Assembly (NCBI RefSeq): GCF_014905135.1
Contig: NZ_CP041406.1
Coordinates: 1,612,001-1,676,000, forward strand
Length of the DNA stretch: 64,000 nucleotides
Source of the DNA: Sulfurimonas paralvinellae
GTDB lineage: Bacteria; Campylobacterota; Campylobacteria; Campylobacterales; Sulfurimonadaceae
Direction: 5' to 3'
The stretch's first letter is position 1. Every line of letters starts with the position of its first letter. The notes under the pieces were generated by a model. The model was not told where the DNA came from, did no database searches, and saw only the letters and a list, made by a program, of their open reading frames with translations. This document shows positions 245 through 56,780 of this stretch, one piece after another. The translations under genes and the position numbers were made by a program.

Positions 245-1246
245 ATGAATAAAGATATTAAAAAGATTGCCATTGTCAGGCTTTCAGCCCTCGGTGATAT
301 TGTCAACAGCAGTATTGTTTTACAATTTATAAAAGAGTTCTATCCTCACGCAGAGATTTCATGGATAGTGGAAAATGCTTTTGCAGATATACTCAAAAAC
401 GCAAAACATCTCGACCATATTCATCGCGTCGATCTCAAAAGATTTAAAAAAGAAAAAAAATTTAGCTTACTGAGCGAAGAGTACAAAAAACTAAAAAGCA
501 TCGCTGAGTTTGACATTATCATAGACATGCAGGGACTTATTAAATCGGCCATAGTTTCTAGAATACTTGGAAAGAATACGCATGGCTTTGACAAACACTC
601 AACGCGTGAGTCTTTAGCTGCTCTGTTTTACAATACAGCTTCAAACATCGCATATGAGACAAACGTAATTACCCGTAATGCAAAAGTCGTCTCCGATGCT
701 TTAGGTATAAATATTACAGATACTATGATAGAAAATAAAGAGCCCGTTTTTAAAATAACAAAAGAGTTCGAGCTCAGAAGTGACATGAAAAATATTGCCT
801 TTGTCATCGGAGCATCCTGGGAATCTAAACGCTACCCAAAAGAGAAGGTCGCTGAAGTTTGTGACGAGCTTGGGGAACAGTGCTACATAATCTGGGGAAA
901 TGACAAAGAATTTGAAGATGCAGAGTGGATATGTAAGCACTCAGAGTATGCTACACTTGCACCGAAACTCACCTTAGATGAACTCATCTCTTTTATCTCC
1001 CATATGGATCTGCTTATGGGCAACGACACAGGACCGACACATATAGCATGGGCACAAAACATTCCATCTATCACGCTCTTAGGACCAACTACACTGCGAA
1101 TGATTGGACAAACACCTCAAAACATCAGTATAAAATCACCTTCCCATGTCAATATTTTAAAAATCGATAAAGATGATTTTTCGATCAAAGAGATCAAACC
1201 AGAGCAGATAATCTCTCATGCCAAGGAAATATTATGCAGCGTATAG
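245..1246 (+). CDS. waaC: Lipopolysaccharide heptosyltransferase I
   Basis: GT9-family enzyme that adds the first heptose to Kdo of the LPS inner core, at the cytoplasmic face of the inner membrane. Near the N-terminus is the family signature RLSALGDIVNS. The C-terminal half has the nucleotide-sugar binding part GASWESKRYPKEK and MGNDTGPTHIAWA, typical of WaaC/WaaF. Length is about 333 residues, usual for the family. I place the start at ATG 245 and not ATG 236, because a TATAAT overlaps the latter. The 3' end overlaps the following acyltransferase by 13 nt, so the two LPS genes form an operon. Confidence 0.9.
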   Translation: MNKDIKKIAIVRLSALGDIVNSSIVLQFIKEFYPHAEISWIVENAFADILKNAKHLDHIHRVDLKRFKKEKKFSLLSEEYKKLKSIAEFDIIIDMQGLIKSAIVSRILGKNTHGFDKHSTRESLAALFYNTASNIAYETNVITRNAKVVSDALGINITDTMIENKEPVFKITKEFELRSDMKNIAFVIGASWESKRYPKEKVAEVCDELGEQCYIIWGNDKEFEDAEWICKHSEYATLAPKLTLDELISFISHMDLLMGNDTGPTHIAWAQNIPSITLLGPTTLRMIGQTPQNISIKSPSHVNILKIDKDDFSIKEIKPEQIISHAKEILCSV

Positions 1247-7134: not shown

Positions 7135-7210
7135 TGGTCTCCCTACGTGGACTCGAACCACGAGCTATCCCTTAGGAGGGGACTGCTTTATCCAGTTAAG
7201 CGATAAGGAG
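7135..7210 (-). tRNA. tRNA-Arg (anticodon CCU)
   Basis: A full cloverleaf folds on the minus strand: acceptor CTCCTTA/TAGGGAG, D-arm GCTT/AAGC, anticodon stem GTCCC/GGGAT around loop CTCCTAA (anticodon CCU, reads AGG), T-stem CGTGG/CCACG, discriminator A and an encoded CCA at 7135-7137. It lies 71 bp from the left attachment repeat of the integrated element. It was probably the second gene of a tRNA-Arg pair before insertion. Confidence 0.95.
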
Positions 7211-7644
7211 AAATACATTGTGCTAGATAAGAAAATATTTTGTTTTATAAAAGTTAAAAATTTGGAAGTTAATGAAGTAAGTATGGTGCGCCCGAAAATA
7301 TAGCGTTTTCTCTCTAACTCCGTCAGTGCAGTCCATACAGCCATTTTGAAATTTTCCTTTTAAGTTGTTATAAAGTTGTCATCTCTGTGAAAGTATATCT
7401 GCACCATTCTGATTCTACTATTAAATCTATATTTTATCTTTTGAATTTATTTCATTTCATTTAATGAAATGAGATGAGATAAAATATGAACTGAATTCTG
7501 CTAAAAAATTATATAAATTGCTATATAGTAATTATGAGTGAAAAGAGATTTTCAGCTATATACAAAAAAGATACTTTTAGAAAAAACAATTTCCCCTTTT
7601 TAGATTTTTGATATATTTTTTAAGTATTAATTTTCTTCATTTTA
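7211..7644. other. Non-coding left end of the integrated element
   Basis: Besides the attachment repeat at 7282-7295 there is no credible gene. A large imperfect palindrome spans 7430-7487: outer arms TATTTTATCT and AGATAAAATA enclose an inner CATTTCATT/AATGAAATG inverted repeat. The stretch then becomes extremely AT-rich up to the iterons, as expected beside a plasmid-type replication origin. Confidence 0.5.
7282..7295. repeat. Left attachment site (attL), 14-bp direct repeat
   Basis: TATGGTGCGCCCGA here is identical to 15760-15773, where it is the 3' terminus (including CCA) of tRNA-Arg(GCG). Only the tRNA end is copied here, with no cloverleaf. This is the classical footprint of a tyrosine recombinase inserting at a tRNA 3' end and leaving the tRNA intact at the integrase side. 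Confidence 0.88.
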
Positions 7645-7740
7645 CTATAGTATAAAAGGATAAAAACTATAGTATAAAAGGATAATTTTTAATTTTTAGC
7701 TATAGTATAAAAGGATAAAAACTATAGTATAAAAGGATAA
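7645..7740. repeat. Four iterons, candidate replication origin
   Basis: The 19-bp unit CTATAGTATAAAAGGATAA occurs exactly at 7645-7663, 7667-7685, 7700-7718 and 7722-7740. Starts are spaced 22, 33 and 22 bp, multiples of 11, so all copies face the same side of the helix. The block is a 55-bp tandem duplication of a two-iteron unit. Phased iterons upstream of a Rep_3-type gene (starts at 8214) are the expected binding sites of that initiator. Confidence 0.85.
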
Positions 7741-8008
7741 TTTTTAATTTTTAAAATCTTTTAGAATATCATATTCTAGGTAGTTTCAAGGAATTTGTAA
7801 AAAATTCCATCATGTTATTATATTAAAGAGCATGAGTGCTGTATATTTCTATAAGGTTTTCTAAACCTTAGAAATTGTTCCAGATACTTTTGTGAAAAAA
7901 TATCCTCATAATTTTCATAAATGAAAATTATTCTACCCTCCGATTATTTCTCTTTTCAAAAATTAAAAATTTTTTCATTGAGAAATATATCGTTCCTCCT
8001 ATTGAAAC

Positions 8009-8094
8009 ACATAATGTCCTGCAACAATAATATTTTAAAATATTCCCCTTCCTCCTCAATCGTGAGGAGTTTTTCCCCAAAGGGGAAAAGAGAT
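8009..8094. repeat. 86-bp inverted repeat, left copy, with two hairpins
   Basis: Nearly identical, in inverted orientation, to 11671-11755, with only a few mismatches. Inside are two tandem hairpins: CTCCTCA-ATCG-TGAGGAG (8052-8069) and TTTTCCCC-AAA-GGGGAAAA (8071-8089). The pair flanks the rep, small-gene and chemoreceptor block. A possible 64-codon frame across it (7921-8115) is not supported by an RBS or promoter. Confidence 0.8.
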
Positions 8095-8134
8095 TCAGGG
8101 GTAAAATTGAAATGAAATAGTCTTCATTTTAATA

Positions 8135-8203
8135 TTTTATATAAATTATCTTTTTTATTTGACAAGGTTATTTTTTTTCTTATAATAGTTATATAACAAA
8201 AAA
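8135..8203 (+). promoter_or_regulatory. rep promoter with palindromic operator
   Basis: TTGACA (8159-8164), 16-bp spacer and TATAAT (8181-8186) make a near-consensus sigma-70 promoter. The perfect palindrome GTTATATAAC (8188-8197) sits on the expected start of transcription. The whole 69-bp block is repeated almost exactly at 9231-9300. The RBS AAAGGA is at 8201-8206. Confidence 0.78.
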
Positions 8204-8213
8204 GGAAATAAAA

Positions 8214-9209
8214 ATGAATATAAATAATGGAGACTATAAAAAAAATAATCAACTAATTAACAGGCTATCATATATAGATGATAAAAAAAATTTAGTATCA
8301 ATAACACTAAATGAAGAAAAACTATTAGAATACTTCTTTTTTTCATTACAAAAAAGACATATTATTAGAAAAGATATTAAAAAAGAAAGTTTTTATTGGG
8401 AGAAAAATGAATGGGGAGAATTTTTAAAATTTAAAACAGATACAAAAGAATTTGAAAGCGTTCAGTTTGAAATAGAATTATATGGCTTAAAAACATTTAT
8501 GAAAGTTGAAGAACAAAACTATATTGAACACATTAGAGAAATATTATCTAGGTTTTCAAAAAGACAAATAAATTATATTAGAAATCTAGAAAATGGAACA
8601 CAAGAAAGAACGATAATGCCTGTTAAGGATTTTATAGTAGATAAAATTAATGGAGAAAAAAATTATAGAGTTTTGGTTCATTTAAATATTGAGTTTTTAT
8701 ATCTATCTTTATTTAAAGATGGACAATATACTCCTCTTAATATAAATACAGTTAAAAATATTCGTTCTAAATACTCATTGCGTATGTATTCCGAAATAGA
8801 AAAAGCATTAAATTTAAAATATGATAAATTGCCGTTAAGAAGCTTAAAAAGTATGAATGAGTTTTTTGGAACAAATCTATCCAAGCAAAAAATGGAACAA
8901 AATATTTATAGAGTTAAACAAGAATTTTTATTAAATCGAATGTATTCGTTTAAATATGAAGTTTATAAAAATGAAAATAAAGAGTGGATTTTTAGCATTA
9001 CAGATATAAAAAAACTTACTGAAAATGACATTATTCTTGATTACGTTGATAGTTATTTGGATTATAGGCTACTTACACCAGAATTAAAACAACAGTTTCA
9101 AAAGAACTATATTTCAAAACTTGAAGAAATTGAACCAGATTCTAAAACTTTAAAATCTGTAAATGCACAAACTAAACACTTACAAAGAAAACAAAAAGAA
9201 AAATTTTAA
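8214..9209 (+). CDS. Rep_3-type plasmid replication initiator
   Basis: A 331-residue basic protein that would bind the upstream iterons and open the origin. It has the two winged-helix layout of the Rep_3/RepB family: an N-terminal domain (about 20-160) and a second domain with NTVKNIRSKYSLRMYSEIEKAL followed by LPLRSLKSMNEFFG, the typical initiator pattern in which a strand-helix segment precedes a recognition helix. A Lys/Gln-rich tail ends the protein. RBS and start are clear. Codon use is extremely AT-rich, like the rest of the element and unlike the host genes. Family assignment is by pattern, not by search. Confidence 0.75.
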   Translation: MNINNGDYKKNNQLINRLSYIDDKKNLVSITLNEEKLLEYFFFSLQKRHIIRKDIKKESFYWEKNEWGEFLKFKTDTKEFESVQFEIELYGLKTFMKVEEQNYIEHIREILSRFSKRQINYIRNLENGTQERTIMPVKDFIVDKINGEKNYRVLVHLNIEFLYLSLFKDGQYTPLNINTVKNIRSKYSLRMYSEIEKALNLKYDKLPLRSLKSMNEFFGTNLSKQKMEQNIYRVKQEFLLNRMYSFKYEVYKNENKEWIFSITDIKKLTENDIILDYVDSYLDYRLLTPELKQQFQKNYISKLEEIEPDSKTLKSVNAQTKHLQRKQKEKF

Positions 9210-9230
9210 TTTTTTAAAACTATAAATAAA

Positions 9231-9300
9231 TTTTATATAAATTATCTTTTTTATTTGACAAGGTTATTTTTTTTCTTATAATAGTTATATAACAAAAAAA
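9231..9300 (+). promoter_or_regulatory. Second copy of the promoter/operator module
   Basis: TTGACA (9255-9260), 16-bp spacer, TATAAT (9277-9282), palindrome GTTATATAAC (9284-9293) and an A-run before GGAAAT. It is the same as the rep promoter apart from one extra A. It drives the three small genes at 9311-10051. Confidence 0.78.
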
Positions 9301-9310
9301 GGAAATGAAA

Positions 9311-9478
9311 ATGGAAAAATTAACAAAAAAATTTGGTAAAAATCTAGGAAGTTTTAATTCTCAATATATGAAAGAAAAGTTCAATATTGAGATTAATGCT
9401 AATCATTTTGTTATGAGATTTGAGAGTAATAAATATGTTGTATGTGATAAAAATTATAACATAGTAAAGGAGTTGTAA
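9311..9478 (+). CDS. Small unknown protein (55 aa)
   Basis: ATG at 9311 follows the RBS AAAGGAAATG and the duplicated promoter. The product starts MEKLTKKFGKNLGSF and ends KNYNIVKEL. It is basic at the N-terminus, with a possible beta-rich middle (HFVMRFESNKYVVCD) and no membrane segment. The next gene starts 2 nt after the stop, and this gene's end holds that gene's RBS (AAAGGAG at 9466-9472). Family unknown. Being first behind a duplicated operator, it might be a regulator, but no DNA-binding motif is obvious. Confidence 0.6.
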   Translation: MEKLTKKFGKNLGSFNSQYMKEKFNIEINANHFVMRFESNKYVVCDKNYNIVKEL

Positions 9479-9479
9479 A

Positions 9480-9719
9480 ATGATTAAAATAACACTTTTA
9501 AGTATGATATTAGCAACAGTTTTACTTTCTAATATAGTTTATATTAAAGATATGAATAAAAACCATAATTCAAGTGAATATAAGGATAATTCTAACGAAA
9601 ATAAAACACCTACAAAAGTAGAATTACAATATACACCTACAAAAATAAATCTATTAACTCACAAGTTTAAATCAGAACAACACAAAAAAATAAATTACGA
9701 ACAAGGAACTATAAAATGA
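9480..9719 (+). CDS. Small membrane-anchored or secreted protein (79 aa)
   Basis: One hydrophobic N-terminal segment (MIKITLLSMILATVLLSNIVYI) is followed by a hydrophilic, Asn/Lys/Thr-rich tail with a short repeat (TPTKVELQY, TPTKINLLT). This suggests a single-pass anchor with a disordered tail outside the cytoplasm. A clear AAAGGAG RBS precedes it, and it overlaps the next gene by 4 nt (ATGA). Family not recognised. The operon position suggests it works with the neighbouring membrane protein. Confidence 0.6.
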   Translation: MIKITLLSMILATVLLSNIVYIKDMNKNHNSSEYKDNSNENKTPTKVELQYTPTKINLLTHKFKSEQHKKINYEQGTIK

Positions 9720-10051
9720 CTTTAAATAAATATAAGAAAAGAGGTTTTATAGATACAGAATTAATGAATTTCATAGGAGCGACTAATCCACCACCGATGG
9801 ACAAAGAAACTTCTGATATGATAGTGAAGACAGCTAAAATGATTTTAGATGGACTTTCCTTATTTCTTCCAGATTTTATTATTGAATGGATTAAAAATTT
9901 TATTTCAGCAATAGGAATAGTAATAATTGCTTCTTTAACAATCATAACTTTTCCATTAGCATTATTCTATGCGATAGTTAAAATAGCTTACAAACTATTC
10001 AAAAAAATAAATGATGAGATAGATAACATATTCAACACTCTTTCTAGGTAA
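9716..10051 (+). CDS. Small membrane protein with one or two TM segments (111 aa)
   Basis: A soluble N-terminal part contains ATNPPPMDKETSDMIVKTAKMILDG. Two hydrophobic stretches follow, GLSLFLPDFIIEWIKNFI and the stronger AIGIVIIASLTIITFPLALFYAIV, and then a charged C-terminus (KKINDEIDNIF). Its start overlaps the preceding stop (ATGA), so translation is coupled. I do not recognise the family. Amphipathic-plus-hydrophobic small proteins on plasmids include holin-like, exclusion and toxin proteins, but nothing here decides between these. Confidence 0.6.
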   Translation: MTLNKYKKRGFIDTELMNFIGATNPPPMDKETSDMIVKTAKMILDGLSLFLPDFIIEWIKNFISAIGIVIIASLTIITFPLALFYAIVKIAYKLFKKINDEIDNIFNTLSR

Positions 10052-10115
10052 TATTAACTCTTATTTTTATACCTAAAACAATATCATGGATTTACATAAC
10101 ATTACTTCTTAATAT

Positions 10116-11207
10116 CTATTTTCTATGTTTTAAAAAACTTGCATATAACTCTTCAAAACCGACTTCACTTGAATGTTCAACATCTTTCATTATTTCTAAA
10201 GCTTGCTCATACTGACCTTTATCCCAGGCTTCAACAGCTCTTCTGACACCCTGGTGCACTTTTGCGTGATGATTTGACAAATCAGTAATAACTTTTTGAT
10301 CATCTTTGATTTTATGCTTATTCTCTTCAAACCATTTTCCAAAACGGCAGCCATTTTCATCAATGATATTTACATTCTTTTCACCGTTTACGATATGATT
10401 ATAAGCTATAAGCTTAAAGAGGATATGGTCTAATTTTCCAACGCCGACACCTACTTCATTTGTTATATTTTCCGTAATATCTGAGATTCTTGCTGCATTG
10501 GATATAATGTATCCCTGTTCTTCAAAAAATGCGTCTAACGCAGCATTTACCTCTTCGCTTTTTGTTCTGAATATTTCAGATGATTCCTGAATCTCCGATG
10601 AGCTCTGTTTTAACTGTCCGATGTTTATTTCAACTTCACTTGTTGCTTTTTGGGTACGTTCTGCAAGTTTTCGAACTTCATCGGCAACAACGGCAAACCC
10701 ACGTCCATGCTCACCCGCACGAGCCGCTTCTATGGCAGCATTTAATGCAAGCAGATTTGTTTGGTCAGAGATATCTTTTATAAGTGTAATCACTTCACTG
10801 ATTCCGACAACATTTTCATTAAGTACATTCACACCATCATTCAATCCTATCGCCTCTTGTGCAATGTTAGCTATAGAGTCAGATATATTTGCTGATTGTG
10901 AAGAAATTGTTTCAATGCGTGCAGCTGACTTTTTATTTAAATCGCCCGCTTCTTCAAGCTGTTCTATTGTAGACTCCATTATTTCTCTAGAGAAAGAAAC
11001 ACCGCTGCTATAGGATTTTATCAATATTTCAACTGCTGTATTAAGTGCATTTTGTTCAACACTATCAGTCTCTATGCCTGTTGATTGATTTTGTTCTATC
11101 TTGTAAATATGCTGCTGTAACTCTTCATTTTTACTCTTCAGAGTTCTCACTTCCTCTTCCAGTTCTTCAATACGTTCTTTATCCTGACTATTAGAAAATA
11201 ATCCCAT
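10116..11207 (-). CDS. Soluble chemoreceptor with C-terminal CZB zinc-binding domain
   Basis: A 363-residue methyl-accepting chemotaxis protein with no membrane segment, so cytoplasmic. Residues 10-42 form a coiled coil. The signalling hairpin tip is at about 140-185 ([35 protein letters not shown]). The CZB domain covers about 255-363 with the expected zinc ligands: His261, Cys287 in GCRFGKW, His314 and His318 (HHAKVHQ). CZB receptors are linked to zinc and to hypochlorous-acid or redox sensing in Helicobacter and Salmonella relatives. A minus-strand TATAAT near 11236-11241 and an AGGGA RBS precede it. It is cargo inside the mobile element and less AT-rich than its neighbours, suggesting capture from a chromosome. 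Confidence 0.88.
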
Positions 11208-11883
11208 AATTAAAATCCCTTTTTTTGTATTTTCAAAAATTATACTCCTTGAAATTCAAAAATAAACTTAAATTGTTTTTTTAAGGTTTAGTTGTGATAA
11301 TATAATGCAGATTCTATTGATTCTTTGCTTAAAGTAACGTATTATAGGGAATTATATGGGTTACGAAGTCATTTAATACTACTTATTTAAGCTCTAGGGG
11401 TCTTACATAAGTTCATTTTTTACGATTTGACTTAAGAAAAGTGGTTGCCTTAGAGCTATTTGACCTAAAACTTAATTAAGTTTCACAAAAAATAAATTTC
11501 TTAATTATTACAATAAGTAACAAAAATTCGTATAGACCTGGACTTTTCATAGTTAAGTTGACATTTTCATAGTTAATTTCGTAATCGTTACTTAGAAAAA
11601 TTACTTGAACAACAAATTTCAAAATAACTTTTAATCTTCAAAAAGTCCTTTTTCAACATTATTACCCTATATCTCTTTTCCCTTTTGGGGAAAAACTCCT
11701 CACGATTGAGGAGGAAGGGGAATATTTTAAAATACTATTGTTGAAGGACATTATGTTTTTTGTATATAGTTTTTATTAGATAGGGAGAGCAATAAGAGCA
11801 TCAAGCAGGAAAAGGTGCGTCTTAGTTATCCTACGGAAAACACGACTACACACAAGGGGGAACTACTCTCCGAGGGTCATTTT
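11208..11883. other. Long intergenic region of the element, with candidate oriT
   Basis: No convincing gene is present. It holds the chemoreceptor promoter, a direct repeat TTTTCATAGTTAA near 11546 and 11564, and the right 86-bp inverted repeat. At 11781-11871 lies a less AT-rich block, bounded by GGAGAG (11784-11789) and CTCTCC (11866-11871), just before the mobilization genes. Within it GTGCGTCTTA (11815-11824) loosely resembles the nick region of RSF1010/pSC101-type oriT. This is a candidate only. Confidence 0.4.
11671..11755. repeat. 86-bp inverted repeat, right copy
   Basis: Reverse complement of 8009-8094 with a few changes: the second hairpin arm has AAAAGGG in place of AAAGGGG, and there are two substitutions near the ATAATGTCCT end. 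It keeps both hairpins. The copies face each other across 3.6 kb, so recombination between them would invert the rep-to-chemoreceptor block. Confidence 0.8.
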
Positions 11884-11926
11884 TTGACAAATTTTTTCAT
11901 TAATTATTTTTATTTTGTTTATTTCT

Positions 11927-11951
11927 TATAATAGTTATATAACGAGTAAGG
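11927..11951 (+). promoter_or_regulatory. Promoter/operator of the mobilization operon
   Basis: TTCTTATAATAGTTATATAAC is identical to the core of the two other promoter modules: -10 TATAAT (11927-11932) plus palindrome GTTATATAAC (11934-11943). A TTGACA at 11884-11889 is too far away to be its -35. The RBS AAGGA at 11947-11951 fits ATG 11961 and excludes the in-frame TTG at 11955. Confidence 0.7.
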
Positions 11952-11960
11952 AATTTGAAA

Positions 11961-12425
11961 ATGAAATTTGAAACAGTTCGCAAAAGATACACATTTAAAA
12001 AAGAAATAGTTGAACTTTTAGAAAAAGAATCTAAAAAAGTGAAAAAGACTGAAAGTGAATTTTTAGAAGATTTAATTTATAAAAACTCACACGAAAGAGA
12101 TAACAGGTTAAGTAATCATATTGCAAGAGATTCTGAAAATTTAATCTTACTTCAAATATTGAATAAAGGAAAACAATATTCAAGTATTGAAGAAATTTAT
12201 AAAGATGTAAATGTTATCAATAATGATAAAAAAATTTATTTATCTGAAAAGAGAAATAAAGAAGTTGGTTTTTTTAAAGAGGTAAAATCCATTTTTAATT
12301 TTGATAATTTTAAAAACATTCATAATGATTACAATCAAGCAAAAGACGATAAATCTAAAAAAATAGTTTTAGAAAAAGCGTTCAATAAATTTTTATCAAT
12401 AGTGAAAAAGTATGAGAACAAATAA
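11961..12425 (+). CDS. Relaxosome accessory protein candidate (MobC-like)
   Basis: A 154-residue, Lys/Glu-rich protein directly before the relaxase, overlapping it by 14 nt. The N-terminus RKRYTFKKEIVELLEKESKKVKKTESEFLEDLI has the strand-helix-helix spacing of ribbon-helix-helix DNA-binding proteins, as found in many oriT accessory proteins. The rest is helical. Position and fold suggest it binds the adjacent oriT and perhaps represses the operon through the GTTATATAAC operator. Similarity is by pattern only. Confidence 0.55.
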   Translation: MKFETVRKRYTFKKEIVELLEKESKKVKKTESEFLEDLIYKNSHERDNRLSNHIARDSENLILLQILNKGKQYSSIEEIYKDVNVINNDKKIYLSEKRNKEVGFFKEVKSIFNFDNFKNIHNDYNQAKDDKSKKIVLEKAFNKFLSIVKKYENK

Positions 12426-14235
12426 AAAAAAGGTTTGGAACTTTGGAAAAGAAAGTTTAAATCTAAAAAATATAGGTGTTGTTTTCAAAGACGTTAAAAA
12501 AGGCGGTATCTATCAAGGTTCTTCAAAAGAAAAACTTGAAAAATATGTTGAAAAACAAGGGAATAATTTTCAATCTACTAAATCCATTGAGAAAATGAAT
12601 TTAAAACACTTTATAGTTTCTCCGATAAATCCAGAACTTTACAAGAATTTAACAGAGAAAGAGAAAAAATTAATTCAAGAAGAAAGTAAAGCATGGACAC
12701 ATAAAACTTTTAATAAATGGGGTTATAAAGCCGGCATTGAAGAAAATTCCGATAAAGGTATAAAGGGTGGAGTTAGAGATGGTTTTCATATTCACATTGC
12801 AGTTAATGAAAAATATCAAATAAAAGGTTCTGTTGATATGTTGAGATTAAGAGAATCTATGACAAGAGATTTTGCTGAAAATTTACCTAAATCACTAAGA
12901 GATAAATTAGGTTTGAAAAATAAAGAAGAACAAAAAGAAGCTATAAATAAAAGTCGAAGTGAAAAACAAAAACGTAATCATTTAAACAAAGTTAAAAATT
13001 CTCCAGAGTATCAAGCTAACAACGAAACTATTTTAAATTTGACTAGTCAAATGTCAAATATTTTTAAATCTATGAATTTTCAAAATGAGAAAAGACAAGA
13101 GTTATCAGAGATAAGTAAAATAGATAGAAGTTTAATTTTAAAGAGAAAAGATGGTTTAAAAGAACAGATGGAAGATTATAATAAATCTATCAAACGAAAA
13201 GACGAAGATATTGAGATTCTTGATAATAATATCAATCAAAAAGAAGAATCTATTAGTGAAGTTGAGAGAGTTTTTAATAAAGAAATGGAAGAGTTTAAAT
13301 ATTTTATAGAGAGTGAAGAAAGTAGCTTTAATTACTTTGCCGACAATGAACATAGATTTTTTAAAAAACTTATGAGAGATAAGAAGAAAAATGGAACAAT
13401 TTCTTCTGCTGAATTTTTGAGACAAGTATCAAATAATAAAGCATATTGGAAAATGATTAAAGACGATAAAAAAAGAGAAAATAAAATATTTCTTGAAGAG
13501 AAACAAGAAAGGTTTAAAAACACTATAAAATCTATCAAAGAAGATATTAAACTACTTGAAAATAACAAAAGTTTAATAAATAGACTTAAAAGAACTGATA
13601 TGAACTCTTTAAATATTGTAAGGACTGATTATAAAGCAACATCAAAAGAATTAACTAGTCATTATGAAATATTTGATAAGAATATGAAAAATATTAAAAA
13701 AACTCTTGAAGATTTATCAAATCAAAAAGAAGAAATCTCACAAGAGAGAAAAGAGGCAATCACTTATAAAAATAATATGATAAAAAGTGCATTAAACTAT
13801 GAAGATTCACTTCCTAACACAAGCAATAAAATATCTAATGAAATGATTAAAACAATTCACAAAAAAGAGAAAATTAATTTTGAAGCAAGTCATACTACTG
13901 TTGATTCTGTTGATAAATCAAATAGACAAGTATTTCTTAATTCTGATTGCTCAACAACTGAATTTTTTAATAAGATAATTAAATCAACAATGAAAATAAC
14001 AAATTACCCAAAATATAAAATTATTGAAATGTATGAAAATAGAACTTTATTAGATACTTTGAAAACAATAATGGATGAAGATAGAAAAATTGATAGATTT
14101 GAAATGTTATCAGTTAAAACAGTAGAAGAAGCACTTAAATTGATAGAAGAAAAAAGAAATGGAAAGAAAAGAAGAATAAATACACCTGTTCTTAACTATG
14201 CGACTAGTCAAGAAGAAGTTATTTGTGGAATGTAA
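12412..14235 (+). CDS. Relaxase/mobilization nickase
   Basis: A 607-residue protein expected to nick oriT and pilot the strand during conjugative mobilization. The N-terminal ~200 residues hold the HUH-type metal motif (GFHIHIAVN) after a KHFIVSPINPELY strand that resembles relaxase motif I/II regions. The catalytic Tyr is probably in the first 100 residues but I cannot single it out. Residues about 200-480 are long Lys/Glu-rich coiled coils, and the C-terminus is shorter and mixed. No primase or helicase domain is evident. Family within MobP/MobQ is not certain. Confidence 0.72.
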   Translation: MRTNKKKVWNFGKESLNLKNIGVVFKDVKKGGIYQGSSKEKLEKYVEKQGNNFQSTKSIEKMNLKHFIVSPINPELYKNLTEKEKKLIQEESKAWTHKTFNKWGYKAGIEENSDKGIKGGVRDGFHIHIAVNEKYQIKGSVDMLRLRESMTRDFAENLPKSLRDKLGLKNKEEQKEAINKSRSEKQKRNHLNKVKNSPEYQANNETILNLTSQMSNIFKSMNFQNEKRQELSEISKIDRSLILKRKDGLKEQMEDYNKSIKRKDEDIEILDNNINQKEESISEVERVFNKEMEEFKYFIESEESSFNYFADNEHRFFKKLMRDKKKNGTISSAEFLRQVSNNKAYWKMIKDDKKRENKIFLEEKQERFKNTIKSIKEDIKLLENNKSLINRLKRTDMNSLNIVRTDYKATSKELTSHYEIFDKNMKNIKKTLEDLSNQKEEISQERKEAITYKNNMIKSALNYEDSLPNTSNKISNEMIKTIHKKEKINFEASHTTVDSVDKSNRQVFLNSDCSTTEFFNKIIKSTMKITNYPKYKIIEMYENRTLLDTLKTIMDEDRKIDRFEMLSVKTVEEALKLIEEKRNGKKRRINTPVLNYATSQEEVICGM

Positions 14236-14253
14236 GTGAAATTATTTCACTTT

Positions 14254-15714
14254 TTAGCATAATTCAATTCCCTCACTAAATGAATCTTGATTTTTTTGAA
14301 CTACTAAAAATGGTGTAAAGTCAACTTTGTCCATCTTCTCTTTTAAAGATTTAAAATCTCTTTTACCACGCAAATAGTGTCTATCAGTCGTATCTTTTTT
14401 TGTGGAGTGCCCGACAAGTGTTTTTATTTCTAAATCATTGAAAACATTAGCTAAATATAATATTTGAGAGAAGTTTTTTCGCAATGAATGAATGTCTAAA
14501 AATTTTTTGTTTTCTTCTCCAATAACAGTTTTAATATATCTGTTTATCAGAATTCCAACTTTTGACTCCCTAGGTTTTTCACCTAATCTTGTAAATTTTT
14601 TTTCATTGAAGAATATAAAATCTGATTTTTCTTTACCTTGAATCTGTTCTTTAAGAGTAGAAATCAAATCTTTATGAATAACCATAATTCTTACAGCATT
14701 TTCTGTTTTAGTTCCACCAACATAAATAAGTTCTTTTTCATAGTCTATATTTTCAAGTTTTAAATTTACTGCTTCCGCTCTTCTTAATCCTGTCATTAGC
14801 AAAAATTTAAAGAAATTATATTCTTGCGTTAAATTTTCATTTTTTAAATACTCTAAAATATAAGCACTTTCACTTTCTGTAAATTCTCTTTTATCAGAAT
14901 AGGTTTTTTTATTCATAGCTTTTAGTTTTATAAATGGATTCTTATAAATAAAATTATTATCTACAAAATGCTCAAATATCTCTTTTGTTCTTTTAACGAC
15001 TTCATCTATCGTTCTAGTTGATTGTTTAGGGTATTTGTCTAATAGCTTGCTTTTTTTCTCTATAAGTAGCTTTAAGTTCTTATCTCTTATATCTTTTTTG
15101 CGTTTCCAATTGCTAGGAATAGATAATAAAAAAGTTCTAAAATTAGTAGCATCAAGATTAGTAATGTCTTTTACATTTTTACTTGCTTTAAAATAGATAT
15201 ATAGATATTCAACAGTTAGATTATATTTATACATTATTTTCGTATTGCCTCTTTTCTCAGCAGACTTTACTTTTAAGAAATGTTCGCAAGACTTCTTTAA
15301 TGTTTGAGAATTTCTGGTTTCTTTATTTTCAATAGATACATTGTTCTCTTTTTCTAAAAGTTTGATTTTTTTGATAATGGTTTTTTCAATTTCAGCAATT
15401 AGTTTGCGTTCATCTTCATTTTCAGCAGTGAGAACTAGTCCTGCACCGCCCATATTATTAATTTGATAGTGAGTGTTAATCATATCATTTAAAGAAAAAT
15501 CATTTTTGATTTTCTTGATAACTTCTAAAATCTTATATTTTAAAAGGTTTGCGTAAATGAAATTATCTGTTTTAAGTGATTTTTTATAGGTGTAATTTTT
15601 AATTTTAATAACAAAATAATATTTATCATTCTTAAAAGTCAAATATTTATTATTTAATAAACCAAGATTCTCTAAAAGTTGTCCTATTTTATTAAGTTGT
15701 TTTAAAGTTGTCAT
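14254..15714 (-). CDS. Tyrosine recombinase (integrase) of the element
   Basis: A 486-residue phage/plasmid-type integrase. The C-terminal catalytic domain has all key residues: Arg311 (MTGLRRAEAV), His409-x-x-Arg412 (DIHSLRKNF), His436 (LVGHSTKK) and Tyr447 (RHYLRG). The middle (about 135-255) resembles a SAM-like core-binding domain, and the N-terminal 120 residues probably bind arm sites. It reads away from tRNA-Arg(GCG), whose end lies 48 bp upstream of the start codon. This is the usual arrangement for an enzyme that uses that tRNA as attB. The RBS is weak. It appears intact. Confidence 0.92.
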   Translation of the reverse strand: MTTLKQLNKIGQLLENLGLLNNKYLTFKNDKYYFVIKIKNYTYKKSLKTDNFIYANLLKYKILEVIKKIKNDFSLNDMINTHYQINNMGGAGLVLTAENEDERKLIAEIEKTIIKKIKLLEKENNVSIENKETRNSQTLKKSCEHFLKVKSAEKRGNTKIMYKYNLTVEYLYIYFKASKNVKDITNLDATNFRTFLLSIPSNWKRKKDIRDKNLKLLIEKKSKLLDKYPKQSTRTIDEVVKRTKEIFEHFVDNNFIYKNPFIKLKAMNKKTYSDKREFTESESAYILEYLKNENLTQEYNFFKFLLMTGLRRAEAVNLKLENIDYEKELIYVGGTKTENAVRIMVIHKDLISTLKEQIQGKEKSDFIFFNEKKFTRLGEKPRESKVGILINRYIKTVIGEENKKFLDIHSLRKNFSQILYLANVFNDLEIKTLVGHSTKKDTTDRHYLRGKRDFKSLKEKMDKVDFTPFLVVQKNQDSFSEGIELC

Positions 15715-15759
15715 GATGTTTGATAAGTCCCTGTTTTCGGGGGTTTCGAGGGGTAAAGT

Positions 15760-15773
15760 TATGGTGCGCCCGA
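15760..15773. repeat. Right attachment site (attR) at the tRNA-Arg 3' end
   Basis: TATGGTGCGCCCGA, identical to 7282-7295. It covers the encoded CCA and the 3' acceptor strand of tRNA-Arg(GCG). The crossover must lie within these 14 bp. Confidence 0.88.
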
Positions 15774-15838
15774 CATGATTCGAACATGTGACCGCTGGTA
15801 CCGCAAACCAGTGCTCTATCCAGCTGAGCTACGAGCGC
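15762..15838 (-). tRNA. tRNA-Arg (anticodon GCG)
   Basis: Acceptor GCGCTCG/CGGGCGC, D-arm GCTC/GAGC, anticodon stem CTGGT/ACCAG with loop TTGCGGT, T-stem ACATG/CATGT, discriminator A and encoded CCA. The anticodon is GCG (reads CGC, CGU by wobble), not the usual bacterial ACG that is edited to ICG. Its 3' end is the integration site of the element. Confidence 0.95.
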
Positions 15839-26433: not shown

Positions 26434-29022
26434 CTAGACATTAATTTCAATAATAGTCGGTTCTGAAAAATTCGGTACATCATCATAAGAGAAAACAGCA
26501 TAATACTTGTGTACTTCTCTATCACCGAAGCTGTCATAAGTATAATTATCTTTACCTCCATAGAGTTTTTGTCCATCATATGGAGAACATGGAACCTTAA
26601 AAGGATTCTTCACGACAATTACACCTTGAAAACCTTCATCTTCAGGGTTATCCCACTCTAACTTCACAACACCGTTTTCGAAACTTGTTCGAAGATTCTC
26701 TACCTGCTTTGGAGGATTTTTACGTTTCTTTATATAGTGTAGCGCCAATTGAGGTCTGTTTTCACGTTTTGAATCCAGCCAGCTTACGTATTCGGAATTG
26801 ACACTCTCTTTATGTGTCGAAGCTGAGATAACGAACAGAACTTTTTTCATTATTTTATGGATCTCTATCATCTCATTGATCGCAAACCTGTCAAAAACAA
26901 AGCGCTGCTGCCTCGAATCTTCTAAATCTGACAGACTAACATCATAGCCTATACGTTCAATTACATTTCGATTTTTAATTTTATCATAGGTTATGTCACC
27001 ATCTATCGGTTCAACCATCTCAATATGAAAACGTAAACTTTTACTTGTTGAAACAATCTTTTGTGCTTCAAGTTCTATGTATGCTTTAGAGACGACAATA
27101 TTATCTGTATCTGGTAAATTTGTAAGATCAAACTCCATACAGGCGTATTTTTGTAAAGAGTTTTTATCGTAGCCTGCATTGAGTGCCGTATCTTTTAAAT
27201 TATCTTCATTAATTGTGAATTCAGAACTCGAAAGCAAGTCAAGTTTTGCTTCATCTATAGTATAAGAGATATCGAGCTTAGGTCTGTATGTAAGACCACC
27301 GCTGAATTTTCCATAACCGATATCCCACTGCATCAGTTGCGATGAACGATCAAGAGGCAATGATGTCGGTCCCTGCATTTTAAAGTAAGCTTCTCTGCGT
27401 TTGAGTGATTTTTGCAAAACTGCTATCTCCTGTGCAGCGAATTTATACGTTCTCCAAATCCCCTGTGAGAGTTGTGAAGAGGCTGTCGGTCTATCAATGA
27501 ATGAGAGCATTTTTGCATTTTTTATATCTTCAAAACGATCTATCTTCTCAATCGTGCGCTCATCCATCTGTCCGACTCGCCACTCTCCATAGCGTTCAAC
27601 CTGAACTGCTACACGGTTCATCGGATAAAAAGAGATCTTTGCTTCTGTAATAATTGCATTTTCAGGAATTGTCTGTAATGAAAATCCTGCAACTCCGAGA
27701 CATTCCCCTTTTTTCTCCGAAATTCCGACAAACAGAGAGTTATTACCAAAATGCTCTGCATTCTTCTTTGTTTTTTCGCCTACATAACCTATTTTTGAAG
27801 CAACCGGATAGAGGATTTTTGAGAACATGCTTTCTGCAGGCTTTGTGCGCACACCTACCATCTGTCCAAATGGTGACTTAATAGATCTATCTTTACATAC
27901 TGCGCGAATGTAATAATAGTAGTTCGTTGCTGATTTTAGATTTCTATCAGTGAAAGTTTTTAACTTTGTCATTCCTATTCTATTGGAAGCCTGTGCAAAA
28001 CCTTTTTTCTTTGTTGAGCGATAAATTTCAAAAAATATTGTTTCATCATCAATATAATCCCATTCCAGAGTAATCTCTTTTGATGCTATTGTCGTTGCAC
28101 AGAAATCTTCTACTCGTGGAAGGACATTGACTTTATTGTAATTTTTCACTTCAGAGAGCGCCATCATAAGTGCAGGAATATTTTCATCGATATGTTCACT
28201 CATGTGCTCAAGATAATCACTGATATTTCTAGTTCCGACTTCCGCAACAAGAGCAAGGGCTCCACGTGAATAGTAAAATTCTCTTCCACTTCCTGAAATA
28301 AGATGTACAGGAGGTTTTCCCATATGAACACCATATTCACGACCAGATTCTTTGCGAATCTCTTCAGCCATATTCGAAGCCAGGATATTCAGGTCAATAG
28401 CATCTTCGGCATCTTCATGAATAAAATTGTGAGCGGGAAAGAAAACATTTCCCTGTGAGTGATAATCGAGGGCTATAGTGATATTTTCATGTGAGACAAA
28501 AAAATCTCTCAGTGCTCGCGTTTCAGGCTCAGAAAAAGGTTCCGGTCCAGAATAGACATTTGATGTATAATTTTTATTTGGAGCATAACCGATACTAAAG
28601 TTTCTGTTCAAATCTACACCATAGCTTCCATCAGGGTTTTTACGACGATTCTTTCTCCAAAATGAGAAGTGATTGCGTGAGTATTCAAAACCATCAGGAT
28701 TCGCACACGGCACCATATAGAGTGTTGTGCTGTCTAAAATTGCATTGAGTTGCGGATCATAATCAATATGATCTATAATGTATTGCGCAAAGGAGAGCGA
28801 AAGTTCTATACCTATCCATTCTCTAGCGTGAATTGTTCCGGTATAAAAAAGTGCCGGCTTCTCTTGATGCGTAGCAATCTCTTTTGTAATGGTAACAGCG
28901 ATAATGTCTCTTTCTTCCCATGTCTTTCCAATGGTTTGTACTTTAAAAAGATCCGGGTTTGATTTTTGTGCTGCTTTAAAAAAGTCTACACACTCATCAT
29001 AAGAGCTATATTGTTGTCTCAA
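26434..29022 (-). CDS. Large M14 zinc carboxypeptidase with FN3 and beta-sandwich C-terminal domains
   Basis: 862 residues. The N-terminal ~300 form an M14 carboxypeptidase: zinc ligands His65, Glu68 (TIHAREW) and His188 (LDYHSQG), substrate-binding Arg140 in DLNRN and catalytic Glu261 in VAEVGTRN. A fibronectin type III domain follows (about 305-395, TTIASKEITLEWDYIDDETIFFEIYRS). Two DNRLRE-like beta domains come next (IITEAKISFY and VVSKAYIELEA are typical strands), and a second FN3-like end (GVVKLEWDNPEDEGFQGV). No signal peptide is visible, which is odd for this domain mix. It is the last gene of an M20, ATP-grasp, M14 operon. Substrate unknown. Confidence 0.85.
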   Translation of the reverse strand: MRQQYSSYDECVDFFKAAQKSNPDLFKVQTIGKTWEERDIIAVTITKEIATHQEKPALFYTGTIHAREWIGIELSLSFAQYIIDHIDYDPQLNAILDSTTLYMVPCANPDGFEYSRNHFSFWRKNRRKNPDGSYGVDLNRNFSIGYAPNKNYTSNVYSGPEPFSEPETRALRDFFVSHENITIALDYHSQGNVFFPAHNFIHEDAEDAIDLNILASNMAEEIRKESGREYGVHMGKPPVHLISGSGREFYYSRGALALVAEVGTRNISDYLEHMSEHIDENIPALMMALSEVKNYNKVNVLPRVEDFCATTIASKEITLEWDYIDDETIFFEIYRSTKKKGFAQASNRIGMTKLKTFTDRNLKSATNYYYYIRAVCKDRSIKSPFGQMVGVRTKPAESMFSKILYPVASKIGYVGEKTKKNAEHFGNNSLFVGISEKKGECLGVAGFSLQTIPENAIITEAKISFYPMNRVAVQVERYGEWRVGQMDERTIEKIDRFEDIKNAKMLSFIDRPTASSQLSQGIWRTYKFAAQEIAVLQKSLKRREAYFKMQGPTSLPLDRSSQLMQWDIGYGKFSGGLTYRPKLDISYTIDEAKLDLLSSSEFTINEDNLKDTALNAGYDKNSLQKYACMEFDLTNLPDTDNIVVSKAYIELEAQKIVSTSKSLRFHIEMVEPIDGDITYDKIKNRNVIERIGYDVSLSDLEDSRQQRFVFDRFAINEMIEIHKIMKKVLFVISASTHKESVNSEYVSWLDSKRENRPQLALHYIKKRKNPPKQVENLRTSFENGVVKLEWDNPEDEGFQGVIVVKNPFKVPCSPYDGQKLYGGKDNYTYDSFGDREVHKYYAVFSYDDVPNFSEPTIIEINV

Positions 29023-29056
29023 TGTTTTACCTTAAAATTTTTTTGAAATAATACTC

Positions 29057-29977
29057 TTACTTCGTTTTTCTGTCAATTAAATCCACAATTAAATCGATTT
29101 TTTTACTGTTGAAGTTTAATCCCATTTTTTCCTGTTCAGGTGTAGCAAAAGCTGGTATGCCGTTTACTTCCAAAACAACATACTCCTCTTTTTCTCGGTC
29201 ATAGATAATATCTACACCGCCGATATCCACTCCGGTAGCTTTACAGGCACGCATTGCTACATCAATGATTTCATCATTGGCCTCACGCATAAAGACAGAA
29301 CCGCCGCTTGTAACATTTGTGCGCCAATCAGTTCCACTCGCTTTTCTGCCATAGCAAGATACAAATTCACCATCCACAATGTCTACACGAAAATCGGTAT
29401 TGTCATAATCAATAAACTTCTCAACATAGAAAAATCGTAAATCCATTTGATTTAAAAACGGCATCAGCATATCAAGATTGGCTTCATTTTCGATTTTTGT
29501 CAATCCGACACCACCCCAGCCATCAGTTGGTTTATAAACCATTTTATCCCATTTTTTGATGATCTTTTTAAGTTCATGACCATCATCACGGTGACACAGT
29601 TTATAATCAGGTGTTTTTATTCCATTATTTCTCAAAACAAAAGATGTATGAAATTTATCTTCCGTCAAAGCAAAAGCATCATATGAGTTTATCATCGGGA
29701 TGATACGGTTAAGAGCTTGATAGAGATACATTTGATACTGTGTCTGTTCTCCCGCATTATAAGAGAAAAAGAGATCAAGTTTATCAAGTTTAATGCCACT
29801 GTTTTCTTTACCATGGTAAATAATATGGCCATTTTTCGCTATTGCATGGCGTAAGTTTAAATCATTCACCACATCAATATCTCTCTCTTTGAGCTGTTTT
29901 ATGATTTTTTTTCCTATCTTATCACCGCCGCCATTTCTATAAAGCCACATCCCGATCGTTCTTTTATCCATTTTCAT
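29057..29977 (-). CDS. RimK-like ATP-grasp ligase
   Basis: 306 residues with the ATP-grasp plan. An N-terminal pre-ATP domain is followed by KMVYKPTDGWGGVGLTKIE (ATP-binding loop), FYVEKFIDYDNTDFRVDIVDGEFV, the AT-grasp glycine loop NVTSGGSVFM and the metal-binding end GVDIIYDREKEEYVVLEVNGIPAF. RimK-type enzymes join an amino acid to a carboxylate through an acyl phosphate (glutamylation, lysine or peptide ligation). It lies between two carboxypeptidase-type genes with 5 and 34 nt spacing, implying that one pathway builds and trims an amide or isopeptide bond. Substrates cannot be read from sequence. Confidence 0.8.
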   Translation of the reverse strand: MKMDKRTIGMWLYRNGGGDKIGKKIIKQLKERDIDVVNDLNLRHAIAKNGHIIYHGKENSGIKLDKLDLFFSYNAGEQTQYQMYLYQALNRIIPMINSYDAFALTEDKFHTSFVLRNNGIKTPDYKLCHRDDGHELKKIIKKWDKMVYKPTDGWGGVGLTKIENEANLDMLMPFLNQMDLRFFYVEKFIDYDNTDFRVDIVDGEFVSCYGRKASGTDWRTNVTSGGSVFMREANDEIIDVAMRACKATGVDIGGVDIIYDREKEEYVVLEVNGIPAFATPEQEKMGLNFNSKKIDLIVDLIDRKTK

Positions 29978-29982
29978 TTCTC

Positions 29983-31086
29983 CTAAAAATTTGAATTTTT
30001 TATAAAGTGTTCAAAAAGCTTTCTACTCATCTCTATGCGTGAGGCGAAACTGTTTTTAAGTGCCCTCTCTTTAACTGTATGATCGCCATCCCCATAAGGA
30101 CCAAAGCCATCTAGTGTCACCACTCCACAGGAACTGACAATATTTGCATCACTCACGCCACCGCGTTCTTCTGAAATAATTTGCTGTTGTGTAATCATTT
30201 CTATCTTATTTAGCAGTTCTAAGGACTTCTCAGATGTTTGCATTACATCTCGTTGTATCCCGCCGCTTAGTGTCGATGATGTTCCCTGTACATAGGAACG
30301 ATTGACTATTGCTTCAATTGTCTGCAATACCCTGTCTCGCTCTCCAGCACTTTTATATCGCAGCTCAAAGGTCATCCTTGCGTGAGGTGAAATTGTATTT
30401 GCACCTATGCCGCCTTCAATCTTTCCTACATTGACCGTTGTTCCCTTATCGAGATCCGTCAATGCAACAAGTTCCTGCAGTTTATAAGAGAGTTCCAAAT
30501 TTGCATCATGCCCGTCACTGTAATGATTACCTGCATGAGCGGCTTTGCCTTCAATATCAATGAAAAAAGTACCGACACCCTTACGCCCGGTGACAAGTTC
30601 CATGTTTCTGCCTGCCGCTTCATAAACGAAACAATAATCATATGCCGATGCCAATTCCTGCGTGAGGTATTTTGAATCATCACTGCCTGTCTCTTCATCG
30701 CTGACTAATAAGACATCTATATTTTCAATCTCAATATCACTGTTCTTTAGCTCACGCAAAGCCTCGATCAGGACAATATTGCCGCCCTTCATATCACAAA
30801 CACCCGGTCCATACACCCATTCTTCATCTTCAGTAAAGTATTCAAACTTACCGGGAGGAAAGACCGTATCTATATGGCCTAAAAGCAGTAATTTTGGATG
30901 ATTTTCTGTATGGGAGGAGGCATAATGACGATGATTCCCTATCGTTTCTCTTTGATATTGTGTAGTTCTAAAACCCAAAGATTCAAACCAGCCATCAAAA
31001 ATATTACCGACTGCGTCAACGCCTTCTTTGTTGTTTGTATATGAGTTGATTTCTATGACTTTTTTCAGGTCATCAAGGTAGTGCAT
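29983..31086 (-). CDS. M20 family metallopeptidase (glutamate carboxypeptidase-like)
   Basis: 367 residues. Dinuclear zinc ligands are visible: His in LLLGHIDTVFP, Asp in GPGVCDMKGG, the Glu-Glu of SDEETGSDDS (general base plus ligand), and a late His in GPYGDGDHTVKE. The lid domain carries GKAAHAGNHYSDGHDANLEL. The M20A pattern is close to carboxypeptidase G2, which removes C-terminal glutamate. It is first in the operon, followed by the ATP-grasp gene after 5 nt. Cytoplasmic, no signal peptide. Confidence 0.85.
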   Translation of the reverse strand: MHYLDDLKKVIEINSYTNNKEGVDAVGNIFDGWFESLGFRTTQYQRETIGNHRHYASSHTENHPKLLLLGHIDTVFPPGKFEYFTEDEEWVYGPGVCDMKGGNIVLIEALRELKNSDIEIENIDVLLVSDEETGSDDSKYLTQELASAYDYCFVYEAAGRNMELVTGRKGVGTFFIDIEGKAAHAGNHYSDGHDANLELSYKLQELVALTDLDKGTTVNVGKIEGGIGANTISPHARMTFELRYKSAGERDRVLQTIEAIVNRSYVQGTSSTLSGGIQRDVMQTSEKSLELLNKIEMITQQQIISEERGGVSDANIVSSCGVVTLDGFGPYGDGDHTVKERALKNSFASRIEMSRKLFEHFIKNSNF

Positions 31087-31212
31087 TTAGTATCCAAATT
31101 AGTATCTATTTTGGACAATTATACATGAATTAGATTTAAAGTTTATAAATGAAAGATATTTGTGAATTTAAAAAAGAGAAGGAGGTTTAGAAAAGTAAGA
31201 GACTTAGAAGAA

Positions 31213-31572
31213 TTATTTTCTTCTAAGTTCTTTAATACGAGCTTTTTTACCTGCAAGTGAACGTAGGTAGAATAGTTTCGCACGACGAACACGACCGCGA
31301 CGAATTACTTTAATCTCGTTGATTGAGTCAGAGTAAATTGGGAAAATTCTTTCAATACCAACACCGTTGGCTCCAATTTTACGTACTGTAATAGTTTGAC
31401 CAGTACCTTGACCACGTTTAGCAATACAAACACCCTCGTAATTTTGTACACGAGTTTTGTCGCCTTCTTTAATTGTTACTGCAAGATTTACAGTATCACC
31501 AGCACGAAAATCTGGAATGTTTTTCTCAGCGATTTGTGCTTTTTCAAAGTTTTCAATATACTTATTTCTCAT
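31213..31572 (-). CDS. rplS: Ribosomal protein L19
   Basis: Large-subunit protein at the 30S-50S interface. The 119 residues include [55 protein letters not shown] and the basic tail [15 protein letters not shown]. It ends the classical rpsP-khpA-rimM-trmD-rplS operon, 30 nt after trmD. Confidence 0.97.
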
Positions 31573-56579: not shown

Positions 56580-56780
56580 GTAGCCTGAGAAGCCGTCACA
56601 CAATTGGCTTGGTTCTAAAAGCCGAATTTGGGTGAAGAGAGGACTATCTGACGGCGACAATCTCATCGGCAGAGTAAACATGCCTCAAGTGAGACCATCG
56701 ACACACGATAGTTCTACTAGTTCACAATATGAATATGTAGAACCCTCATATACGTGCTGACACGTACTTCTCAGACTAAC
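56580..56780 (-). ncRNA. ssrS: 6S RNA (epsilonproteobacterial purD motif)
   Basis: About 200 nt. 5' GTCTGAGAAG pairs with 3' CTTCTCAGGC as a 10-bp closing stem, and further helices flank a large central region, as in 6S RNA, which mimics an open promoter and binds sigma-70 RNA polymerase. A minus-strand TATAAT at 56792-56787 places the 5' end near 56780, and a terminator follows. The position directly upstream of purD matches the known purD-motif/6S location in epsilonproteobacteria (from memory). Confidence 0.8.

Follow-up and report, generated by a model that had tools for sequence, protein, structure and literature searches.

Our analyses of a 64,000-nucleotide stretch of the Sulfurimonas paralvinellae chromosome (NZ_CP041406.1, positions 1,612,001 to 1,676,000, hereafter the window) identify a run of three genes, encoding an M20 metallopeptidase, an ATP-grasp amide ligase of the RimK/ArgX/MptN type (LIG) and a large M14 zinc carboxypeptidase, as three of the four members of a conserved cassette. 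The fourth member (LIG2) is a second, diverged ATP-grasp protein of about 320-550 amino acids (aa), which in relatives is usually encoded between LIG and M14. We give an even chance to the interpretation that this cassette specifies a self-contained system, located in the cytoplasm, that writes and erases acidic amino-acid tails, most likely glutamyl ones. More tentatively, it could represent a bacterial poly-glutamylation cycle acting on a protein or cofactor, in which two writers and two metallocarboxypeptidase erasers would form a counterpart of the TTLL/CCP tubulin code.

The genome scan returned 330 LIG relatives, from which the best 80 were taken, and 81 loci were examined. All four genes were found together in 76 of these, in Campylobacterota and marine Gammaproteobacteria, while the remaining five mostly corresponded to contig ends or broken frames. 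The hosts comprised Photobacterium, Vibrio, Shewanella, Pseudoalteromonas, Alteromonas, Colwellia, Halomonas, Endozoicomonas, Cycloclasticus, Arcobacter, Sulfurovum and Sulfurimonadaceae. One of the loci (L132) derives from the metagenome-assembled genome of a Sulfurimonadaceae bacterium congeneric with the window genome, and a plasmid search identified the full set in Photobacterium sp. DA100. Because the set recurs in so many loci from two phyla, the trio of the window is not a product of chance. A preliminary description of the window, made from the sequence alone, had placed the ligase between two peptidases in one tight run and had proposed a genome-neighbourhood check on their conservation; the three genes do lie on the minus strand as described, with 5 nucleotides between M20 and LIG and 34 between LIG and M14, and the set is indeed kept together. 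In its usual layout, M20 is divergent from LIG-LIG2-M14, and overlaps of a few nucleotides are frequent. No other neighbour was conserved, every further gene family being present in at most 21 of the 81 loci.

The members of the cassette are also inherited together. Over 99 relatives, LIG and M14 were both present in 37, LIG only in two and M14 only in none (P = 3e-25), and LIG and LIG2 were both present in 34, with eight discordant cases (P = 9e-18); these P values derive from Fisher tests that ignore kinship and are hence upper claims. Among the better genomes of the genus, agreement is perfect (11/11 vs 0/19), though several of these have LIG2 at an unlinked site. The divergence of the four proteins is correlated (r 0.84-0.89), a pattern that shared species history alone could yield. 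One genome of Pseudomonadota (G265; locus L140, 559-4290) carries M14 and M20 fused in a single open reading frame of 1243 aa (M14, residues 1-855; M20, residues 873-1231), with LIG and then a short LIG2 downstream, and this fusion indicates that both peptidases share a substrate or a site of action.

In-depth sampling covered Campylobacterota and Pseudomonadota. The cassette was rare overall, with 4 occurrences among 299 Pseudomonadota and 1 among 274 genomes in the class around Pseudoalteromonas, centre genomes counted in, and its distribution is consequently patchy rather than general. Such patchiness, together with the compactness of the cassette, would be expected of an anti-phage defence or conflict module. 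This explanation is nevertheless very improbable, since PADLOC gave no match at E <= 0.01 for LIG, LIG2, M14 or M20 and the trio occupies a fixed chromosomal position beside rplS across many species of the genus.

The M14 protein matches Peptidase_M14 from Pfam with an E value of 1e-58 (199 bits; fold Z 33), and the structures nearest to its catalytic domain are CPA4, CPB, CPT and CPO. The zinc ligands H65, E68 and H188 and the catalytic E261, which family M14 requires, are invariant in 32/32 sequences, as are R123, N139 and R140, the equivalents of Arg127, Asn144 and Arg145. In the same 32 sequences the specificity residue of the S1' pocket, Arg247, is always Arg; it corresponds to CPA position 255 and aligns without gaps to Ile255 of CPA4, so that the protein bears the basic residue typical of acidic-specific, CPO-like enzymes. 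CPA position 255 sets the specificity of M14 enzymes, and Arg255 confers preference for acidic C-terminal residues: Xenopus Cpo.1, with Arg at this position, cleaves FA-Glu-Glu, and neither FA-Phe-Ala nor FA-Phe-Phe (PMC9925722). Likewise, human CPO takes off Glu and Asp (PMC6214572). Action on acidic residues at the C-terminus is predicted for both peptidases, most of all for M14.

Beyond the catalytic domain, the AlphaFold model (mean predicted local distance difference test score 84.9) contains four beta-rich blocks. FN3 stays below threshold in the window protein (15.8 vs 25 bits) and passes it in the Photobacterium orthologue (26.1 bits), which aligns over the full length with 44% identity; DNRLRE falls just below threshold in the window protein (29.9 vs 34 bits) and is matched by 26 of the 32 M14 orthologues at E <= 1e-3 (best 1.7e-14). 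The FN3 and DNRLRE-like domains of the preliminary description are thus real. Its statement that a signal peptide is lacking also holds, as an in-frame TAA lies four codons ahead of the TTG start and the orthologues share this start without a hydrophobic N-terminus. No CCP structure was found among the matches listed for the whole M14 protein, which are filled by the catalytic domain and therefore exclude nothing.

The second peptidase has the complete make-up of family M20, i.e. two-metal ligands, catalytic Glu and dimerisation domain. It matches Peptidase_M20 (E 7e-18) and M20_dimer (PF07687; E 6e-18), and its metal ligands and catalytic Glu (H71, D98, E131, E132, E156 and H336) are invariant in 43/43 sequences. 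Its best solved relative is carboxypeptidase G2 (CPG2), with an E value of 6e-28 over 349 residues. Whereas CPG2 is a secreted enzyme with folates as substrates, the M20 protein described here is cytoplasmic and belongs to the cassette.

LIG matches the RimK family of Pfam (E 6e-20), and its structural matches are ArgX, RimK (5zct, 4iwx) and LysX. The residues K108, K149, E186, D195, R197, D256, E270 and N272, among them the two ATP-binding Lys and the Mg ligands D, E and N of an ATP-grasp ligase, are invariant in 36/36 sequences, as is the motif W-[KR]-T-N-x-x-S-G-G. Its best NCBIfam profile is MptN, at 143 bits against a cut-off of 350, and, unlike MptN and CofF, the glutamate ligases of tetrahydromethanopterin and F420, the cassette has no linked cofactor gene. 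Assignment to the RimK S6 ligase equivalog (52 bits vs a cut-off of 331) and to the glutathione synthetase GshB (55 vs 272 and 50 vs 299 bits) was rejected. As judged from these profiles, the similarity of LIG to RimK, GshB, LysX and MptN is at family level only, under every NCBIfam cut-off; a match to a known glutathione or rimK pathway, which the preliminary description had named as a ground for refutation, is thus not borne out. A tandem LIG pair was observed in one relative (G052; locus L054, 70-1922), its second copy being 59% identical to the LIG of the window.

Given that ArgX and LysX are the nearest solved structures of both LIG and LIG2, and that LysK is an M20 enzyme, the cassette might be taken for a LysW/ArgW-type carrier pathway. 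In such a pathway, as known from the LysX/LysK synthesis of lysine or arginine, LIG and LIG2 would attach Glu or aminoadipate to a LysW-like carrier, and M20 would set the product free. This is, however, highly unlikely, and already largely refuted by several differences. LysW was not found in the window genome, where the best score was 12.7 bits against a cut-off of 53.2. The GSWGR motif, through which LysX and ArgX recognize LysW (PMC10433800), is replaced by DGWGG in LIG and by SNYGG in LIG2. Moreover, the cassette lacks the kinase, reductase and aminotransferase of that pathway (PMC10433800), in which M14 would have no role.

LIG2 shares the fold of LysX, RimK and ArgX (Z about 19), and the 38 sequences compared retain its ATP-binding Lys residues along with D183, R185, D244 and E257. 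A helix-hairpin-helix tail was detected in 17 of them, and some forms stop after the ATP-grasp part; two others (L088 and L130, presumably the two Cycloclasticus loci) have a C-terminal DUF1643 at the place of the helix-hairpin-helix. In the window genome LIG2 is located beside efp (G000:C1:797011-798411; L058 8842-10257), about 0.84 Mb from the trio, and it directly follows efp in at least five members of the genus, counting the window genome. Four genomes (G030, G042, G047 and G059) harbour two LIG2 copies, one within the cassette and one elsewhere.

In RimK/RimB, bacteria already offer a case of a glutamate ligase that works together with a protease taking glutamate off (PMC11957791). This system (RimABK) resembles the cassette in combining a Glu-adding ATP-grasp ligase, from a superfamily common to both, with a dedicated Glu-removing peptidase, but its eraser is a retropepsin-like aspartic endopeptidase instead of zinc carboxypeptidases, and it has one ATP-grasp protein instead of two. 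A RimK-like modification of ribosomal protein S6, or of EF-P, would be in line with the RimK family membership, with the position of the trio beside rplS and of LIG2 beside efp in the genus, and with the S6 tails of the genus, which terminate in acidic repeats and Glu. We regard it as improbable all the same: S6 tails are alike with and without the cassette, S6 terminates in A, G or Q in several cassette genomes, rplS and efp are not regular neighbours beyond the genus, and RimB (PF05618) was not found in the window genome at E <= 1.

In eukaryotic tubulin modification, TTLL glutamylases and cytosolic carboxypeptidases (CCPs) bring together amide ligases and cytosolic M14 carboxypeptidases specific for C-terminal Glu. 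The cassette would apply the same logic of ligase plus M14 carboxypeptidase in the cytosol, yet its M14 protein is nearest to CPA4, CPB, CPT and CPO and is not known to have a tubulin-like target, and its M20 protein is without counterpart in TTLL/CCP. Acidic-specific cytosolic carboxypeptidases are known to act on tubulin (PMC6214572).

Making and trimming of an amide-linked product, as put forward in the preliminary description, remains the best-supported interpretation, in the form of an acidic tail or a peptide, although the unit responsible is a quartet and not the trio then described. In the mechanism that we propose for acidic tails, LIG would use ATP to activate an acceptor carboxylate (a C-terminal Glu or similar) and would attach an acidic amino acid, most likely L-glutamate, via an amide bond, as RimK, ArgX and MptN do. 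LIG2 would help LIG, either through a bond of another kind (first residue vs extension) or in a regulatory or targeting role. M14 would then strip C-terminal Glu or Asp one at a time while its beta domains grip the acceptor, and M20, kin of the glutamate-releasing CPG2, would take off the residue still remaining or a differently linked one. In its working, the cassette would resemble RimK/RimB or TTLL/CCP while belonging to neither. We infer glutamate as the added residue, this division of labour, and an acceptor that would be a macromolecule or cofactor produced by genes outside the cassette. Since no signal peptide was found in the cassette proteins seen, the cycle would be cytoplasmic.

Several observations weigh against such a cycle. 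The cassette encodes neither an acceptor protein nor a carrier, and the position of Tyr248 in M14 is occupied by N, K, Q, H or A. What we take to be the substrate-binding residues of CPG2 have no clean alignment in M20, for which Glu specificity is therefore less sure than for M14. In LIG2, the canonical Asn metal ligand is replaced by Ala259 in 38/38 sequences (E257-C258-A259), and hhalign pairs this Ala259 with N272 of LIG; the D, E, N set of Mg ligands of ATP-grasp enzymes is thereby incomplete, and LIG2 may not be a ligase at all. Finally, five genomes contain LIG without LIG2, and three draft genomes LIG2 without LIG.

The main rival to the acidic-tail cycle is a free small peptide or poly-amino acid, such as an osmolyte, a storage polymer or a metal-binding peptide, for which LIG and LIG2 would form two successive amide bonds and M14 and M20 would mature or degrade the product. 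We consider it possible, if on the doubtful side. It would account for the differing substrate-loop motifs of the two ATP-grasp proteins (W-[KR]-T-N in LIG vs W-L-T-N in LIG2) and for the failure to find a conserved protein substrate near the 81 loci, and it would suit the named hosts, all of which we take to be marine or saline. In addition, RimK itself yields free poly-alpha-glutamate (PMC11957791). On the other hand, no conserved transporter, tailoring enzyme, regulator or precursor supply gene was found in the cassette across the 81 loci, and a peptidase of 860 aa bearing four accessory beta domains would be unusual for a small substrate.

At the locus itself (Table 1), the trio is preceded by rplS, which follows rimM and trmD, and is followed by an rRNA operon. 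It probably constitutes its own transcription unit, because a terminator-like hairpin overlaps the end of rplS; a consensus scan found 4 terminator-like sites against 2.9 expected, which is weak evidence. Elsewhere in the window, a block of low G+C content (7135-15838; 25-27% vs about 40%) extends between two tRNA-Arg genes and looks like an integrated mobilisable plasmid, its gene identities having been judged by eye. A purD RNA motif (RF01069; 63.6 bits) is located on the minus strand at 56583-56717.

Table 1. Coordinates of the cassette genes and of other features in the window (positions in nucleotides of the window unless residues are given)
Feature	Position	Strand	Description
M20 metallopeptidase gene	29983..31086	minus	367 aa; leads the operon; nearest solved structure carboxypeptidase G2 (glutamate carboxypeptidase)
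LIG, RimK/ArgX/MptN-type ATP-grasp amide ligase gene	29057..29977	minus	306 aa
M14 zinc carboxypeptidase gene	26434..29022	minus	862 aa, TTG start; catalytic domain residues 1-298, then FN3-like/DNRLRE-like beta domains
M14 protein, non-catalytic part (residues about 299-862)	26434..28128	minus	AlphaFold model, Photobacterium alignment, DNRLRE matches of orthologues
M14 beta domains	residues: FN3-like about 303-395; DNRLRE-type about 399-590 and 592-767; FN3-like about 775-862		bounds read from AlphaFold strands
Stretch from rplS to M20 gene	31087..31228	minus	11-pair terminator-like hairpin at 31202-31228, overlapping rplS end
Tyrosine-recombinase-like integrase	14254-15714		beside tRNA-Arg(gcg); by eye
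Relaxase-like protein	12412-14235		by eye
Replication-initiator-like protein	8214-9209		by eye

All the catalytic folds of the cassette are already known. The preliminary description had been aware of no described pathway for the trio, and the literature searched, open-access full texts only, yielded no publication on this gene combination or on the cassette. A salinity transcriptome of Photobacterium damselae includes a strongly salt-regulated M20 peptidase and RimK gene, whose locus tags could not be linked to the cassette. As a unit the cassette is thus undescribed in that literature, and there is a real chance that its cycling of amide tails by ligase plus peptidase represents a new glutamylation system.

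Most of what is known of reversible glutamylation in bacteria comes from the action of RimK/RimB on ribosomal protein S6. That the cassette is kept together in two phyla suggests that many marine bacteria contain a modified molecule not yet known, for the tracing of which it supplies the exact genes, residues and species, together with testable function predictions for four generically annotated families.

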